From Cytophagales bacterium (GTDB taxonomy: Bacteria; Bacteroidota; Bacteroidia; Cytophagales; Cyclobacteriaceae), in contig DPLR01000433.1 in NCBI GenBank assembly GCA_003541895.1, forward strand, positions 1 to 11,918: a DNA stretch of 11,918 bases. The letters are read 5' to 3'. The position numbers were made by a program, and so were the translations under genes. Within the stretch, counting starts at the first letter, position 1, and each line of letters opens with the position of its first letter. Below, one piece after another: positions 1,717 through 10,373 of this stretch. The notes beneath the pieces are model-generated. The model was not told the origin of the DNA. It saw nothing but the letters and a program-made list of their open reading frames with translations, and made no database searches.

Positions 1717-2595
1717 TTACCAATCAGGTTTGCCTTTGTCTTTTGGCTTGGTGGCCTTGCGTCTATTCTGCTGCAGGTACTGAACTTCCTGATTTTTCAT
1801 CGCTTCTAAAATCATCTTTGCTTTTTGCTCGCTGATTTTCATGTCTTTCAGTTTTTCTGAAAGCGATGGATCGGGTTTGTTCTTCTCGTCTTTGTTCTGC
1901 TGATCTTTTTTCTCTTGCTCTTTTTGTTGCTGCTCTTTTTCCTTCTCTTTCTGCTCTTTGTCTTTTTGATCTTTCGATTGCTGGTCTTTCTGATCTTTCT
2001 TTTCCTGCTCTTTTTTCTGCTGATCCTTCTGATCTTGATTGTCCTTCTGATCTTTGTTTTGCTGGTCTTTATTCTGTTGATCCTTGTTGTTTTTTTGATC
2101 TCTATTCTTGTCGTCTTTTTTATCCTTGTTGTCTTTGTTCTGGTCTTTATTCTGTTGCTTTTTTTGCTCGTCCAATTTTTTCTTCACCATTTCATAATTG
2201 AATTTGGCTTGCTCATTTTCAGGCTCGGCTTTAATCGCTTCCTTAAAATGATTCAATGCTTCTTCAAATTTTCCTTGACGGTTGGCCATCACACCCAACT
2301 GTTGGTTTGACCACGATTTAATTTTTCTGTTGCTGCTAGCGGTCAGTGGCTGATAGGTATTAAATGCATTGGCTGTGTCGTTCTTTTGAAAATAGGAATT
2401 CGCGAGGTTCATTGCCAATTCTTCTTCGGTAACACCGAGCGAATCTTTTAAGTACCTGTACTTCTCGATGGCCGTTTTGAAATCGCCCGCGAGGTACGCC
2501 TTCTTTGCTTCTGCTTTTAGCGAATTTATTTTACTGACCTTATTCGGATCAATGCTAAGTAGAATTCCCAGTATTAAAATTGCAGTCGCTTTCAT
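1717..2595 (-). CDS. batC: BatC-like TPR protein with a long charged linker
   Basis: This 292-residue protein begins with a hydrophobic N-terminus (about residues 3-14) that fits a signal peptide or anchor. It is followed by TPR-type helices (about 23-50, 58-85, 96-128, including NRQGKFEEALNHFKEAIKAEP). Residues 143-240 are a low-complexity linker made almost only of K, Q, D, N and E. The C-terminus (254-292, KISEQKAKMILEAM ... KGKPDW) is the conserved tail of Bacteroidota BatC proteins. BatC belongs to the Bat (Bacteroides aerotolerance) system, thought to work with the VWA proteins BatA/BatB at the membrane; its molecular role is not settled. The ATG overlaps the batB stop (ATGA at 2595-2592), indicating translational coupling. 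batD and batE, often next, are absent here; thiolase follows instead. Confidence 0.88.
   Translation of the reverse strand: MKATAILILGILLSIDPNKVSKINSLKAEAKKAYLAGDFKTAIEKYRYLKDSLGVTEEELAMNLANSYFQKNDTANAFNTYQPLTASSNRKIKSWSNQQLGVMANRQGKFEEALNHFKEAIKAEPENEQAKFNYEMVKKKLDEQKKQQNKDQNKDNKDKKDDKNRDQKNNKDQQNKDQQNKDQKDNQDQKDQQKKEQEKKDQKDQQSKDQKDKEQKEKEKEQQQKEQEKKDQQNKDEKNKPDPSLSEKLKDMKISEQKAKMILEAMKNQEVQYLQQNRRKATKPKDKGKPDW
1876..2169 (-). repeat. Low-complexity K/Q/D/N/E-coding tract in batC
   Basis: About 98 codons (BatC residues 143-240) encode almost exclusively Lys, Gln, Asp, Asn and Glu in short degenerate units such as NKDQQ and KDQKD. The coding strand is strongly purine-rich. The tract probably forms an extended, flexible, highly charged spacer or a helical charged segment between the TPR domain and the conserved C-terminal tail. 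Units are not exact copies, but such tracts are prone to length change between strains. Confidence 0.85.
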
Positions 2596-3560
2596 ATGGT
2601 CACTGTCTTCACATCAATGAGCAAATCTAAAACTAAAAGGATTAACGCAAGCAACAAGAAAAAATGATATTGATTAGACGAAACATCGACAAATCGAGCA
2701 TCGCGAAGTTCGCCTTCAATTTTACCTATGGTATTGATCAATTTGGAAACATCATTTTGGGTTTCATTGATTTCAAAATACTGACCGTTTGTTTTATTGG
2801 CGAGCGATTTTAATTCGGACGAATTCAATTTAGAAACTACGGTTTGGCCCTGGGCATCGGTCTTATAACCACGCCCCGAAATTATCTGCCCGCCTTTTTC
2901 AGTGCCAACACCCAAGGTAAAAAGCTTAATGTTCTTTTCCTCTATTTCTTGAGCGATTTCATTGCTTTGTTCTCCAAAATCTTCGCCATCGCTGATCAAC
3001 ACAATTACTTTCGATTTCTGCTGTGTACTCGGGCCTTCCTGGTTGTTTAGTTTATCTAGCGCCATACGTAGTGGTGGCCCAAAGTCAGTACCGCTGGAAG
3101 GGACTAAACTTGAATTCATCGTTTCGATAAAAAGGTTCAAAGCATTTTGATCGTACGTAAGCGGACATTGCATGAAAGCTTCTGAAGAGAAAATAATTAC
3201 GCCAACCCGGTCTGAGTTGAACGCCTCTACAATGCGCTTCATTTCGTATTTTACTTTTTCTAGCCGCGTAGGCTGAATATCAAAAGCATCCATCGATTTG
3301 GATAAGTCAACGCAGATCATGATGTCTTTACCCACCGACTTGATTTCTTTTTTTGAGTCGCCAAACGAGGGCCCCATAAAAGCCACGATGAGCAACCCAA
3401 AGAAAATGGTGCGAACTGTGAGCTTGAAAAAGGTAGTGTAGTAAGGCGTGTTCAATACCTGACCGATGCGTACAATGCGGAACATGAATATTCCGTAAAG
3501 AACGATGAAGAGCGAAACGAAGATGAATTGGGTCAAACCCCAGTCACGAAACCAAACCAC
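2592..3560 (-). CDS. batB: BatB-like VWA-domain membrane protein
   Basis: This 322-residue protein has two N-terminal membrane segments (about 10-30 and 50-65), a von Willebrand factor A domain (about 78-285) and a C-terminal membrane segment (about 299-316). That is the BatA/BatB layout. The metal-ion-dependent adhesion site is complete: D85-x-S87-x-S89 in DLSKSM, T158 in SGTDFG and D191 in SDGED. Bat proteins are linked to oxygen tolerance and envelope stress in Bacteroides and Leptospira, with no enzymatic activity assigned. The start is GTG at 3560: an in-frame TAA lies just upstream and no ATG or TTG intervenes, so GTG is the only reasonable choice. The gene overlaps batC by ATGA. Unusually, batA is not directly upstream; instead there is a broken exported methyltransferase 90 bp away on the same strand. 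Confidence 0.92.
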   Translation of the reverse strand: MVWFRDWGLTQFIFVSLFIVLYGIFMFRIVRIGQVLNTPYYTTFFKLTVRTIFFGLLIVAFMGPSFGDSKKEIKSVGKDIMICVDLSKSMDAFDIQPTRLEKVKYEMKRIVEAFNSDRVGVIIFSSEAFMQCPLTYDQNALNLFIETMNSSLVPSSGTDFGPPLRMALDKLNNQEGPSTQQKSKVIVLISDGEDFGEQSNEIAQEIEEKNIKLFTLGVGTEKGGQIISGRGYKTDAQGQTVVSKLNSSELKSLANKTNGQYFEINETQNDVSKLINTIGKIEGELRDARFVDVSSNQYHFFLLLALILLVLDLLIDVKTVTI

Positions 3561-3595
3561 GATATTTTTTTGCTCGCGAATTTAAGAGGTAATGA

Positions 3596-3628
3596 CAAAA
3601 GTAAAAAGTCAAATGATTTAGAGGGCAA
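3596..3628 (-). promoter_or_regulatory. Possible housekeeping promoter of batB-batC
   Basis: A TACTTTTG at 3603-3596 on the minus strand matches TAnnTTTG exactly and lies 35 bp before the GTG of batB. The best -33 triplet is TTG at 3628-3626, with a spacer of 22 bp, slightly longer than usual. It would allow batB-batC expression independent of the methyltransferase upstream. Motif evidence only. Confidence 0.35.
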
Positions 3629-3650
3629 CCCCTTCAAATTGGCTTTCCAC

Positions 3651-4265
3651 TCATTTCTTAAAACTAATCATTATCCCTGCGCGACTCTTTTTATCGATCG
3701 TAGTTTCGAAATCTTTGTTATTTATAACGAACTCATTGTATTCGGGCGGCACATTACCATCGATTACGTTATGAGCGGTGAAGCATCCGCCTTTTTTAAG
3801 CTTAGGCGTAACATTAAGGAAATATTGTTTGTACCAATCTTTGTCTGCATCCGAAAAAACGAAATCAAACGGGCCGGGGAGTTGTTTTACGATTTCGTGG
3901 GCGTTTCCAAGTTTCAGGTCTACAAATTGAATTAGCCCAGCCTCGGTCAAATTCTTAATCGCTTGCTTTTGTCTTTTTTCATTCAGTTCAACTGATGTTA
4001 CTTTTCCGCCCGTTTTGCTCATCGCCCATGCAATCCAAATGGTAGAGTGACCGGTTGATGTTCCGATCTACAATGCCGAGGTGTATTTATTTTTCACAAT
4101 TAAATCATGAAGCGTTTGCCCATCAACAAAGGGTACGTTCAGGTCATGCCACTCGCTTTTATGTTCTTTTAAAAATTTCTCCACTCTTTCATCAAGGGCA
4201 GTGTTAGACTGCGATTGACTTGCGAAACAGATCAACAGAAAGGAAATGGTGGCAATTGTTTTCAT
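3651..4265 (-). pseudogene. Exported SAM-dependent O-methyltransferase interrupted by one in-frame TAG
   Basis: One continuous frame of 205 codons runs from ATG 4265 to TGA 3651, broken only by a TAG at 4070-4068 (codon 66). There is no frameshift: reading through gives TSAL-*-IGTSTGHSTIWIAWAMSKTGGKVTSVEL, and the family normally has Glu at the stop (ALEIGTSTG, SAM-binding motif I). A single GAG to TAG change would explain it. Later family motifs are intact: GPFDFVFSDADKDWY (acidic, metal/SAM region) and GGCFTAHNV. Residues 1-19 (MKTIATISFLLICFASQSQ) look like a Sec signal peptide, which is odd for a SAM-dependent enzyme. Without suppression the gene yields only a 65-residue fragment lacking the fold. 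A restart at ATG 4022 would lose motif I. It could be a recent pseudogene or a sequencing error. It is divergent from the ECF sigma operon and has a matching promoter upstream. Confidence 0.85.
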
Positions 4266-4287
4266 AAGTGAAGAATTAATCCACTAC

Positions 4288-4317
4288 TTAGACCACTGGA
4301 GTACCTAAATTATTCCC
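4288..4317 (-). promoter_or_regulatory. ECF-type promoter of the exported methyltransferase
   Basis: On the minus strand GGGAATAA (4317-4310) is followed by a 16-bp spacer and GTCTAA (4293-4288). The layout is that of ECF promoters (GGAA-type -35, GTC-type -10; E. coli sigma-E uses GGAACTT with GTCTAA). The ATG of the methyltransferase is 22 bp downstream. The same two boxes with the same spacer occur on the plus strand in front of the sigma gene, while the two spacers are unrelated in sequence. That makes chance unlikely. Confidence 0.75.
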
Positions 4318-4338
4318 ATCGAAAAAGTAATGAGGCTT

Positions 4339-4368
4339 GGGAATAAAACCAACACGAGACTTGTCTAA
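4339..4368 (+). promoter_or_regulatory. ECF-type promoter of the sigma/anti-sigma operon (autoregulatory)
   Basis: GGGAATAA (4339-4346), a 16-bp spacer and GTCTAA (4363-4368) precede the sigma factor ATG by 26 bp. The sequence mirrors the promoter on the opposite strand at 4288-4317. The two -35 elements form a perfect 9-bp inverted repeat (TTATTCCCA at 4310-4318, TGGGAATAA at 4338-4346). ECF sigma factors commonly transcribe their own operon, so the sigma encoded at 4395 is the natural candidate to read both promoters. The match between sigma and promoter is inferred. Confidence 0.75.
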
Positions 4369-4394
4369 CGGCAAAATGGACTTTAGATTGCCTT

Positions 4395-4928
4395 ATGGCC
4401 GAACTCAAGGATGAAGAACTGATAACCAACGCGCAACAAGGCGATTTAACTTCATTCAAAACGCTGGTGATTAGGCATGAAGGTAAAGTGGCAGGTGTTG
4501 TGCGGTCTATGTTAGGTTCTACTGCAGAAGCGGAAGATATTGGTCAGGAAGTTTTTATCCGGTTTTATGAGGCCTTACAAAAATTCAGGGGCGAATCGGC
4601 TGTGGGCACTTATTTGATTCGGATTGCCATTAATCTTTCGTTGAATGAATTAAAAAGGCGGAAGCGCAGGTTTTCCATCTTTGCAAGAGAAGAAGAAGGA
4701 CAATTCGAGGTGGATGATAACAACCCAATGGATTTGAAAGAGATGATCAACCACGAATTCAACCGGTTGGATGTGGACTTCCGTGCAGTGGCCACCTTGC
4801 GGTTGGTGGAAGGATATTCAACCGAAGAGACAGCCGAGATTTTGGGTATTCCATTGGGAACCGTTTTATCACGATTAGCGCGAGCGCAAAAAAAATTAAG
4901 AGCCGGTTTAGAAAAGCATTTGAATTAA
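4395..4928 (+). CDS. ECF-family RNA polymerase sigma factor
   Basis: This 177-residue protein has the two-domain ECF layout. Sigma region 2 covers about residues 15-92, with AEDIGQEVFIRFYEAL (46-61) and region 2.4-like IRIAINLSLNELKRRKRR (75-92). Region 4 covers about 118-172, with the helix-turn-helix YSTEETAEILGIPLGTVLSR (141-160). Length and motifs are typical. It directs core RNA polymerase to a dedicated promoter set, probably for an envelope stress response given its neighbours. Five bases separate its stop from the anti-sigma-like gene, so the two are co-transcribed. It is preceded by an ECF-like promoter that recurs in front of the divergent methyltransferase gene, suggesting autoregulation. 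No Shine-Dalgarno is visible; the ATG at 4395 matches the normal ECF N-terminus. Confidence 0.95.
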   Translation: MAELKDEELITNAQQGDLTSFKTLVIRHEGKVAGVVRSMLGSTAEAEDIGQEVFIRFYEALQKFRGESAVGTYLIRIAINLSLNELKRRKRRFSIFAREEEGQFEVDDNNPMDLKEMINHEFNRLDVDFRAVATLRLVEGYSTEETAEILGIPLGTVLSRLARAQKKLRAGLEKHLN

Positions 4929-4933
4929 AGTGT

Positions 4934-5344
4934 ATGGAAAATTTTAGCGAAGATATTTTTTTAAAATCGTTGGATGTGGAGCTCAGCCTTCAGCAGAAAA
5001 CGGAATTGGAAAATGCATTACAAAACGATCGACAGTTGCAAAAGAAAGCCGATCAATTTGTGAAGCTGCGCACCCAGTTGCAGCGAAACGAAGTTGATTC
5101 CTTCGGGCCTTTTTTTGCCGAACGAATCATCAACAGGATTAAATCCCTGAAAAAGGAGATTGACTATCAGATTTTTTTCTTCTTCAAAAAATACCAGTTG
5201 GCTGTGCTGGGTGTGATTGTGGCTTTGGTGGTCCTGAATATTTTTTCTTCAGATCACCTTACCCTTCAGTCCATTTTTGGTTTTGAAGAACAGCAAGTTG
5301 AAGATTTAGTTACGATTGATATTTATAAAGACCTAACACCTTAA
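4934..5344 (+). CDS. Probable anti-sigma factor, single-pass inner-membrane protein
   Basis: This 136-residue protein has a cytoplasmic N-terminal helical region (1-80), one membrane segment (about 88-104, QLAVLGVIVALVVLNIF) and a short outer tail (105-136). The N-terminal stretch DIFLKSLDVELSLQQKTELENALQNDRQLQKKADQF resembles the helical hairpin of anti-sigma domains (consensus LDGELS..E...LE.HL). It has no Cys or His zinc motif, so if it is an anti-sigma it is not of the zinc-binding type. A phenylalanine run (FFFFK, 81-85) lies next to the membrane. It follows the sigma gene by 5 bp and precedes the Spy-like gene by 4 bp. The role is inferred mainly from position and topology: it would hold the ECF sigma at the membrane until an envelope signal arrives. 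Confidence 0.7.
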   Translation: MENFSEDIFLKSLDVELSLQQKTELENALQNDRQLQKKADQFVKLRTQLQRNEVDSFGPFFAERIINRIKSLKKEIDYQIFFFFKKYQLAVLGVIVALVVLNIFSSDHLTLQSIFGFEEQQVEDLVTIDIYKDLTP

Positions 5345-5348
5345 AGTT

Positions 5349-5768
5349 ATGACCGCTGAGAGAAAAAAAGCCGTACTTGTTTTAATAGCCACGTTCATCA
5401 TTGGGATTTTAATTGGAGCCTTGGCGACCGGAATGTTTGCAAGAAAATATTATCACGGGCGTGATGGATTTCGGATGGGACGCAATGAGATAAAAGACGA
5501 GCGCAGAGGGAGACTAGCCAATAAAATTTACAAAGTGGTGAAAGCAGACTCGGCAACCATTCGTTTGATGAAACCGATCGTTGATGAAACGGTGGCTCAC
5601 CTAGATCAAGTGGAGGAGCAGAGCCATAAAAATGCACATGATCAATTGGATTCGCTGAAAATAAAATTGCGCCCCATCTTAAATGAAGAGCAAATGGAGC
5701 GTTTAGAGAAATTCTTATCCTTTAAAAGACCCAACCGAGAAGAAAGGCGTGAACGCGATCGCGACTAG
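5349..5768 (+). CDS. Membrane-anchored Spy/CpxP/CnrX-like periplasmic helical protein
   Basis: This 139-residue protein has an N-terminal membrane anchor (8-29, VLVLIATFIIGILIGALATGMF). A periplasmic, highly charged, helical domain follows. Its segment RPILNEEQMERLEKFL (108-123) resembles the LTxxQ element of Spy/CpxP/ZraP/CnrX-type proteins. Histidines at 36, 84, 93 and 97 could bind metal but are not in a recognised site. The C-terminus (126-139) is a basic/acidic tail (KRPNREERRERDRD). In the Cupriavidus CnrYXH system an ECF sigma, an anti-sigma and a metal-sensing protein of this fold work together. This locus has the same three types of part, so it may sense metal or misfolded envelope proteins. 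That comparison is by architecture, not close sequence identity. It is the last gene of the operon; folC starts 48 bp downstream. Confidence 0.65.
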   Translation: MTAERKKAVLVLIATFIIGILIGALATGMFARKYYHGRDGFRMGRNEIKDERRGRLANKIYKVVKADSATIRLMKPIVDETVAHLDQVEEQSHKNAHDQLDSLKIKLRPILNEEQMERLEKFLSFKRPNREERRERDRD

Positions 5769-5816
5769 AAATTCTTTTCATGCTCGTTTTAGATTCCTAT
5801 TTTCGCGCATCGAAAA

Positions 5817-7094
5817 ATGGAATCGTACCGCGAAAACCTAAACTATTTGTATGAACGCCTGCCTATGTTTCAGCGGGTAGGTGCGGCTGCCTATAAACAA
5901 GATTTAACCAATACGCTGGCACTGTGCGAGGCACTCGGAAATCCGCGGTTCAAATTCAAATCGATTCACGTGGCGGGCACCAATGGCAAAGGCAGCTCAT
6001 CGCACATGCTCGCTGCGGTGTTGCAAACGGCAGGTTATAAAACCGGACTTTACACTTCGCCTCACTTAAAAGAATTTACCGAACGGATAAAAATTAACGG
6101 ACAAGAAGTCTCACGCGATTTTGTGGTTGATTTTGTGAAGCGGATAACACCGGCCATCGAAAAAATTCAACCCTCTTTTTTTGAAACAACCGTGGCGATG
6201 GCATTAGATTACTTTGCACAAGAACAAGTTGATATTGCTGTGATTGAAGTAGGTTTGGGCGGACGATTGGATTCTACCAATGTAATTACACCGGAAGTTT
6301 CGTTGATCACAAATATCAGTTGGGATCATGCCGATTTACTTGGAGATACATTGCAGAAAATTGCCAGCGAGAAAGCAGGCATTATAAAACCAAATGTTCC
6401 CGTCATCATCAGTGAGCGCCAAGAAAATATAGATGATGTTTTCATCGTAAAATCGAAAGCAACCGGCAGTCCTATTTTGTTTGCAGAAGAAATGTGCGAG
6501 GTATCTTCTTTAGGTGATGGAAATTTTGAAGTGAGCATTCAAAACCAAAAGAAAAAATATACGCTTGATTTACAAGGACAGTATCAAAAGAAAAATTTGG
6601 CAGGAGTTTTGGCGGTGATTGAAGAGTTGAAGAAAAAAGGTTTCGAAGTTTCGGATGAAAATATAGCGCAAGGTTTAAAGAATACAATTCCACTTACGGG
6701 CTTGAAAGGACGCTGGCAAAAATTGAGCGACAGTCCATTGATCGTTTGCGATACCGGCCATAATGAAGCGGGAATTCGCGAAGTGCTTGACCAGATTTCG
6801 AAACAGAAATTCAGTCAACTGCACATGGTTTGGGGAATGGTGAAAGACAAAGACGTGAGCAAAATACTGTCGCAGCTTTCGACATCGGCTCGGTATTATT
6901 TCTGTCAAGCAAAAATTCCGCGCGCCATGAATGCCGATGAATTAAAAATGAAAGCAAGCGAATACGGTTTACAAGGCGAAGCAATTGCTGATGTAAATCA
7001 AGCCCTGCATAAAGCCAAACAAAACGCATCTGCCGATGATATGATTTTTATTGGCGGCAGCACTTTTGTAGTTGCCGAAATCGAAGGGTTATAA
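5817..7094 (+). CDS. folC: Bifunctional folylpolyglutamate/dihydrofolate synthase
   Basis: This 425-residue protein has the normal length of FolC. The enzyme adds glutamate to folates (and often to dihydropteroate) with ATP in the cytoplasm. Mur-ligase-family motifs appear in order: P-loop GTNGKGS (54-60), SPHL and ERI (81-91), EVGLGGRLDSTN (144-155), WDH (169-171), SEKAGIIKP with the conserved lysine (184-192), DTGHN (312-316) and the C-terminal GSTFVVAE (414-421). The ATG at 5817 gives the usual N-terminus (YLYERLPMFQRVG). A weak -7-like TATTTTCG at 5798-5805 lies just upstream without a good -33, so read-through from the sigma operon cannot be excluded. trmB follows after 19 bp, so the two are probably co-transcribed. 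Confidence 0.96.
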   Translation: MESYRENLNYLYERLPMFQRVGAAAYKQDLTNTLALCEALGNPRFKFKSIHVAGTNGKGSSSHMLAAVLQTAGYKTGLYTSPHLKEFTERIKINGQEVSRDFVVDFVKRITPAIEKIQPSFFETTVAMALDYFAQEQVDIAVIEVGLGGRLDSTNVITPEVSLITNISWDHADLLGDTLQKIASEKAGIIKPNVPVIISERQENIDDVFIVKSKATGSPILFAEEMCEVSSLGDGNFEVSIQNQKKKYTLDLQGQYQKKNLAGVLAVIEELKKKGFEVSDENIAQGLKNTIPLTGLKGRWQKLSDSPLIVCDTGHNEAGIREVLDQISKQKFSQLHMVWGMVKDKDVSKILSQLSTSARYYFCQAKIPRAMNADELKMKASEYGLQGEAIADVNQALHKAKQNASADDMIFIGGSTFVVAEIEGL

Positions 7095-9785: not shown

Positions 9786-10373
9786 TTATTCATGCTCTAA
9801 CGTTTCAAGGATTTCAGCTAACGGATAGTCTTTCAGGCCTGGTCGTTGTTCTGCGCCACCCTCCAACCGTATTCCGGCAATTGGTAAATTCAAAATACGA
9901 TCGATTTCGCTCGCATTTGAAAGATGCATCACCAATTCAAAATCATTGGCCATTTCATGCAATACCAACTCTTCTTTCGGATTAAGAGGGGAGTCAACAA
10001 TTTCTAAAAACAGAATTTGACTTTTAAGTGAAATCAATTTGGTTTTGGCCAAACTCCATTCGTGTAAATGAATCAAAGGAACAGCTACGTTCCCTACAGA
10101 TATGTGATCGAGGAGATCAAAAGGTAGCTGAATAAAATCGGCTTCATATTCGTTAACCCGATCGATGTTATTCAAATCAACCTCAATCCCAAACTTAGGC
10201 CCCGCCACCCAACTGGTTATCTCTTTAAACGTTTTTGAATCTATGCTTGAAATCGGAAAGGAAAGGAAGTCAACCCCCATGCCAGCACAATACCGGGCCT
10301 CGCTAAGGTTAGTGATTTGACTTACTTTAACTTTAGTTCTCAACATGCCCAAAGATTGAAAAGAAATGGTCAT
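9786..10373 (-). CDS. TrpF-like (phosphoribosylanthranilate isomerase fold) protein lacking the catalytic Cys
   Basis: The N-terminus KVKVSQITNLSEARYCAGMGVDFLSF follows the first strand and helix of TrpF (K[IV]CG[IML]T...A..GAD..GF). The C-terminus AGIRLEGGAEQRPGLKDYPLAEILETL follows the TrpF phosphate-binding end (D.SSGVE..PG.KD). The catalytic cysteine position is a serine (KVS), and the GG-G/FDW stretch of true TrpF is not recognisable. It may be a diverged paralogue without isomerase activity or with another reaction. No other trp gene is in the window. Starts: TTG at 10379, ATG at 10373 and ATG at 10346 are all possible. ATG 10373 is annotated; ATG 10346 (MLRTKVKVS) would fit the family N-terminus equally well. 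It is divergent from the lipoprotein gene. Confidence 0.7.
   Translation of the reverse strand: MTISFQSLGMLRTKVKVSQITNLSEARYCAGMGVDFLSFPISSIDSKTFKEITSWVAGPKFGIEVDLNNIDRVNEYEADFIQLPFDLLDHISVGNVAVPLIHLHEWSLAKTKLISLKSQILFLEIVDSPLNPKEELVLHEMANDFELVMHLSNASEIDRILNLPIAGIRLEGGAEQRPGLKDYPLAEILETLEHE

Follow-up and report, generated by a model that had tools for sequence, protein, structure and literature searches.

The sigma-E/RseA system of E. coli and the SigW/RsiW system of Bacillus are autoregulated and use promoters with a GGAA-type −35 and a GTC-type −10 element. In the CnrYXH system of Cupriavidus, a sigma factor is combined with an anti-sigma factor that has one transmembrane helix and with a membrane-anchored periplasmic partner, and in the Cpx system CpxP exerts negative feedback. 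For Bacteroidota and related phyla, few ECF promoters are known that can be recognized in the sequence itself. The locus described here lies in a window of 11,918 nucleotides from a Cytophagales bacterium (the whole stretch of DNA analyzed). It shares with sigma-E/RseA and SigW/RsiW an ECF sigma factor with sigma2 and sigma4 regions, a putative membrane anti-sigma factor, a GGAA/GTC-type promoter and predicted autoregulation. In contrast to these systems, the −35 element runs on as TAA after GGAA, and the third gene of the operon is Spy-like, whereas the known systems have other partners. Soluble Spy-like proteins in the predicted regulon, candidates for feedback, recall CpxP and Spy of the Cpx system, although a sigma/anti-sigma pair stands here where Cpx has a two-component system.

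Among described systems, CirY/CirZ/Spy of Phocaeicola vulgatus comes closest, likewise with an ECF sigma factor, an anti-sigma factor and a Spy-like gene in one operon (PMC13114119). In excerpts of that report, the cirY/cirZ/spy locus holds the genes whose upregulation in this gut Bacteroidales species is most significant during colitis, and deletion of cirZ, the anti-sigma gene, raises cirY and spy transcripts (PMC13114119). This deletion is the nearest experimental support for the logic of the module considered here, the two loci being likened by layout and not by orthology. Because the layout is shared, the promoter and the sensor hypothesis presented below may be useful for the colitis locus as well. 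In B. thetaiotaomicron, the SigW-1 and SigH-1 promoters are called non-canonical in the excerpts of a second report, with a TGTT element at −10 of the SigW-1 targets; the boxes found here are unlike the promoters described there (PMC12596196). Our promoter sequence was not found in the literature searched, most subscription journals being outside the scope of the search, and its absence from print is unproven.

The 129-bp gap (4266–4394) between an O-methyltransferase gene (3651–4265, − strand) and the sigma gene (4395–4928, + strand) contains two exact GGGAATAA-N16-GTCTAA sites that point outward in opposite directions. The predicted ECF promoter of the sigma operon occupies 4339–4368 on the + strand, with the −35 box GGGAATAA at 4339–4346 and the −10 box GTCTAA at 4363–4368. 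The predicted ECF promoter of the methyltransferase gene occupies 4288–4317 on the − strand, with the same boxes at 4317–4310 and 4293–4288. The distance from the −10 box to the ATG is 26 bp on the sigma side (ATG at 4395) and 22 bp on the methyltransferase side (ATG at 4265). No pair of exact sites arose in 200 dinucleotide shuffles of the window. The mirror placement, spacing, start distances and gap length given in the original prediction are thus all confirmed. We also agree that the spacers, AACCAACACGAGACTT and TTTAGGTACTCCAGTG, are unrelated when compared by eye, and that the window holds no third copy: the single further match with up to three mismatches, at 9978–10007, is at chance level (expected mean 1.18; three or more matches in 22 of 200 shuffles). 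The assembly of this genome (3.48 Mb in 705 contigs, 73.9% complete), searched throughout, contains no GGGAATAA-N14-18-GTCTAA besides the window pair.

The mirror image, TTATTCCCA-N19-TGGGAATAA, includes a perfect 9-nt inverted repeat at 4310–4318 / 4338–4346 and could in principle be an operator for a dimeric regulator instead of two promoters. However, among the thirteen divergent pairs in the loci fetched, 11 of them at sigma loci, the distance between the −35 boxes ranges from 21 to 115 bp. Single, unpaired sites are numerous, and the −10 box is retained at a constant distance even where an inverted partner is missing. An operator of fixed spacing is rejected because of this variation, and we regard an operator of any kind here as scarcely credible. 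As far as the partner genes in the divergent pairs were read, they include methyltransferase, PepSY and His-rich genes, at least three kinds in all. On comparison of these loci, the mirror layout is simply two promoters, predicted to belong to the same regulon, in divergent placement.

The three genes of the sigma operon are separated by only a few bases, all on the + strand. The first (4395–4928) codes for a 177-residue protein with Sigma70 regions 2 and 4 only (Sigma70_r2, E 3.3e-17; r4_2, E 2.6e-9) and is preceded by a bipartite GGAA/GTC promoter, both features of the ECF class; its PDB profile matches are to SigH, SigE and SigW. The second (4934–5344) codes for a putative anti-sigma factor of 136 residues, with one hydrophobic helix at about 88–106 and a 30-residue, presumably periplasmic, C-terminal tail. 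The third (5349–5768) codes for a membrane-anchored Spy-like protein of 139 residues with a hydrophobic helix at about 8–26, which is likely a sensor or regulator. A clear orthologue of the sigma factor was identified in 28 of the 62 genomes of the same genus (52–77% identity; next best sigma factor, 32%). In 27 of these 28 loci a protein with one transmembrane helix follows the sigma gene, and frames of both following kinds are present in the same number, the 28th locus being cut. With the sigma alignment as query, named genomes gave 308 relatives, of which the best 80 were taken; 21 of these loci lie on contigs already in the genus set. According to a simple script, the 80 loci contain a candidate anti-sigma gene in 75 cases, a candidate third gene in 68 and both in 65; some of the loci end early, and others have longer gaps or larger frames. 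One metagenome-assembled genome (JAEUUG01) carries two complete sigma/anti-sigma/Spy-like operons, each with the motif in front (L123 and L131).

The anti-sigma and third proteins were each aligned in 55 rows (the window protein and 54 scan candidates). The anti-sigma family has a short N-terminal helical domain like that of RsiW, one hydrophobic helix and a tail with a median of 31 residues. Its profile matches are to RsiW (E 8.9e-4) and RseA (E 5.5e-3), and RsiW is also the top Foldseek match (TMt 0.70), a weak one at E 4.2. A glycine is retained in the tail in 49 of the 55 rows, preceded by L or F in 46, and such conservation would fit a docking or cleavage site. For the third protein, the PDB profile search gives Spy at E 8.5e-4, with helical apolipoproteins ranked above it, and CpxP at E 0.55; an LTXXQ match is present in 10 of the 55 members, the window's own protein not among them. 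Its structural model is all-helical (pLDDT 85.7, pTM 0.50); Foldseek gave no match for it at E 0.001, and VIA-align nothing meaningful. The operon shares with CnrYXH a sigma factor, a putative anti-sigma factor with one transmembrane helix and an anchored, presumably periplasmic, partner. In contrast to CnrYXH, the third protein here has no His, Met or Cys that is invariant or nearly so across the 55 rows, and CnrX is not among its listed PDB sequence matches. The conserved metal ligands expected for metal sensing of the CnrYXH type are thus absent from these rows.

The original prediction proposed that the adjacent sigma factor reads these boxes and controls its own operon, and it looked to conservation of the motif beside sigma orthologues. 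Such conservation is found. The upstream motif is present in all 27 readable genus orthologues, as NGGAATA-N17-GTCTAA in 26 and as a one-base variant, GGAAATAA, in G079; the 28th (G006) is cut inside the gene by a contig end, which makes its upstream region unreadable. Among the best 80 of the 308 relatives, GGAA[TA]-N17-19-GTC[TAC] lies within 170 bp upstream in 78. The two misses are L135, for which only 40 bp of upstream sequence is available, and L146 from Chryseolinea serpens, which has no site. The latter is the sole uncut scan locus without the motif and apparently has a different coding gene directly upstream. With the near block (L114–L135 and L162) set aside, this looser form is found in 56 of 57 loci of the same best 80, and a stricter form within 150 bp, the one compared with shuffles, in 48 of the 57 (shuffles: mean 0.535, maximum 3). 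These outer loci include Bacteroidales, Saprospiraceae, Rhodothermaceae, Melioribacteraceae, Calditrichota, KSB1, Zixibacteria, Aminicenantes and Fibrobacteria. Since the motif precedes the sigma gene itself in nearly every orthologue, autoregulation is supported comparatively. At the position following GTC, the 78 sites among the best 80 loci have T in 55 cases, A in 19 and C in 4. A specificity code relating this base to sigma residues was considered and dropped; we claim none because most of the top covarying columns belong to the variable linker or the termini.

Within the genus, motif and sigma gene occur together. The form GGGAATA-N16-18-GTCTAA is present in 31 of the 62 genomes, namely in 27 of the 28 with a found sigma gene and in 4 of the 34 without (Fisher p 5.6e-12), and GGAATAA-N16-GTCTAA in 28 of 28 and 8 of 34, respectively (p 1.4e-10); both p values overstate independence because the genomes are related. 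Reversed-pattern controls gave 9 matches against 67 for the first form and 5 against 88 for the second, with none in the genome studied here. The single sigma-bearing genome without the GGGAATA form (G075) carries TGGAATA. In G064, a site lies 30 bp before a sigma gene that is truncated after 61 codons at a contig end; when this genome is counted as sigma-bearing, the figures become 27 of 29 against 4 of 33 and 29 of 29 against 7 of 33.

These data also bear on whether the boxes could be promoters of another ECF sigma factor of the same genome, with the neighboring sigma gene merely one of its targets. Eleven sigma-like matches turn up in this genome at E 0.001, four genomes without a found orthologue retain GGGAATA-type motifs, and G034, a further such genome, retains a motif before a PepSY gene. 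Against this, 30 of the 34 genomes without a found sigma gene also lack the motif (those of them listed hold 5 to 27 sigma-like matches each), and the motif stands before the sigma gene itself in nearly every orthologue, other phyla included. We consider such a rival sigma factor very improbable. The adjacent sigma factor is supported as the reader of the motif by their co-occurrence in the genus. Motifs before target-type genes are present in four genomes without a found sigma gene (G012, G021, G061 and G078), of which two reach a completeness of 94% and 98%. Because many of these sites precede the usual target families, it is likely, but unproven, that the sigma gene is unassembled there; an anti-sigma search of the four genomes was negative for two and gave weak matches for the others, at best E 5.7e-8. 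Both sites in G067, the site in G009 and one of the two in G034 fall within long open frames and appear to be chance matches. The second G034 site (L244, contig C31, − strand) is the one before the PepSY gene; this genome is rated 100% complete, a sigma orthologue was not found in it, and the site may be read by another sigma factor or be a relic.

The genome studied here contains six exact NGGAATA-N17-GTCTAA sites, each 17–27 bp before the ATG of the sigma operon or of a regulon-type gene. Apart from the sigma operon, the products behind them are exported or membrane proteins. Besides the two window sites, they precede a YncE-like propeller protein (C14, 21 bp; Pfam on the gene itself), a PepSY-type membrane protein (C390, 26 bp; Pfam on relatives), a DUF5982-type protein (C208, 27 bp; Pfam on relatives) and a His-rich secreted Spy-like protein (C129), where the site is 17 bp before the second ATG and overlaps the first. 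Seven further sites with one mismatch were set aside as chance, given 15 control matches with up to one mismatch. Among the 67 sites of the genus, 58 fall after clustering into 11 recurring target families: sigma (21), PepSY (6), CarboxypepD_reg (5), methyltransferase (4), small His-rich secreted proteins (4), two Spy-like families (4 and 3), DUF5982 (4), YncE-like (3), cytochrome b561 (2) and TolB-like (2, named by eye). The other nine are singletons, some probably due to chance; a haem-binding protein (PF14376) in G015 is one of the motif-bearing singletons. Thus, the search of this genome and related genomes proposed with the original prediction found sites that track the sigma gene and precede recurring target families. 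The promoter is sharp enough to list regulon members in draft genomes, and a widespread sigma/anti-sigma/Spy operon is now tied to testable targets.

When ten target representatives were searched with Pfam, two Spy-like ones had no useful match. The profile of the third operon protein matches eight motif-bearing targets (E 1.7e-24 to 5.7e-8; 68 sequences searched), the Spy-like target of the genome studied here giving the value of 1.7e-24. An LTXXQ profile search of this genome found nothing at E 0.001, so regulon members cannot be counted in that way. The C129 gene (L195, around 1501–1930) codes for a secreted His-rich relative of the anchored Spy-like protein, with the motif in front, which hints at feedback. 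His-rich proteins of 75–76 residues that look secreted are recurring motif targets as well (L033, L035, L038 and L088).

The motif occurs together with the sigma gene, lies before that gene even in distantly related bacteria and singles out a small group of predicted cell-envelope genes. Drawing on these comparisons, on the operon and on the recurring target families, we propose, with a probability of roughly 0.87, that the adjacent ECF sigma factor uses the two sites as its promoters and that the locus is an autoregulated envelope-stress module with a small regulon. In the resting state, the membrane anti-sigma factor would hold the sigma factor encoded at 4395–4928. The module would respond to a signal at the inner membrane or beyond it, which the target list leads us to guess is a misfolded or damaged envelope protein arising from metal or redox stress; the anchored Spy-like protein would relay this signal to the periplasmic anti-sigma tail, freeing the sigma factor. 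The free sigma factor would then transcribe from both window sites, driving its own operon in positive autoregulation together with the small regulon. The latter would comprise the exported O-methyltransferase, PepSY membrane proteins, the YncE-like propeller, the DUF5982 protein and secreted His-rich Spy-like proteins. These secreted proteins, being relatives of the third operon protein, could serve as chaperones and as negative feedback.

A broader reading is quite possible, though we hold it short of probable. It takes the ECF sigma factor, the RsiW-like anti-sigma factor and the anchored Spy-like sensor as one ancestral module conserved in Bacteroidota, Calditrichota, Ignavibacteria, KSB1, Zixibacteria and neighboring groups, with a nearly fixed self-promoter, GGGAATAA-N16-GTC(T/A)AA. 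As part of the same joint claim, the Spy-like protein would sense by docking on the conserved anti-sigma tail, and the secreted copies of the sensor domain in the regulon would switch the module off. If this were true, the promoter would make the regulon readable from uncultured genomes.

The methyltransferase gene carries an apparent signal peptide, and its frame is interrupted in the assembly by a TAG at 4070–4068 (codon 66), a stop overlooked in the original prediction. Intact, full-length frames occur in relatives, and the TAG may be an assembly error or mark a young pseudogene. The sigma promoter may accordingly be real while the divergent site of the window no longer matters, the gene behind it having decayed. 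However, a single stop in a fragmented assembly of this completeness could be an assembly error, and the window protein is 81% identical to the G003 protein over residues 14–202 of the latter. We therefore judge decay rather unlikely, and prefer to read the divergent site as a working promoter of the predicted regulon. An O-methyltransferase of SAM-dependent type with an apparent signal peptide is also seen in the orthologues at L105, L213, L214 and L216.

Methyltransferase orthologues occur in 20 of the 62 genus genomes. Thirteen of these 20 genomes are sigma-bearing (G064 counted among them), and in 10 of the 13 the motif is found ahead of the methyltransferase gene or of a PepSY gene immediately upstream; the same holds for two of the seven without a found sigma gene (G021 and G078). 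No motif was found within 900 bp upstream of the methyltransferase in G064 and G072, the match in the latter lacking its first 54 residues, nor in the gap before the divergent methyltransferase gene in G068, which has the sigma gene. Downstream in the window lie genes for a BatB/BatA-like VWA protein (2592–3560, − strand) and a BatC-like TPR protein (1717–2595, − strand), both only putative regulon members. No sigma-70 promoter or terminator was found between the methyltransferase and bat genes, and promoter-like and terminator-like matches in the stretch 3500–5900 are fewer than the shuffle means. The methyltransferase gene has a bat-type gene behind it in G000, G001, G003, G068 and G069. The same order occurs in G031 and G063, both without a found sigma gene and without the motif there, and is missing in G002, G005, G027 and G033, which have both sigma gene and motif. 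The motif therefore does not explain this synteny. The methyltransferase thus holds as a predicted target, whereas the suggestion that the bat genes belong with it is neither supported nor contradicted by synteny. The comparative tests could have failed and came out for the promoter, sigma, autoregulation and methyltransferase reading, which is on this ground supported.

In two genomes without a found sigma gene, G013 (L225:1426–2658) and G024 (L226:1453–2658), the methyltransferase and a PepSY_TM-like domain are encoded in one open frame, which suggests a joint function of methyltransferase and PepSY proteins.
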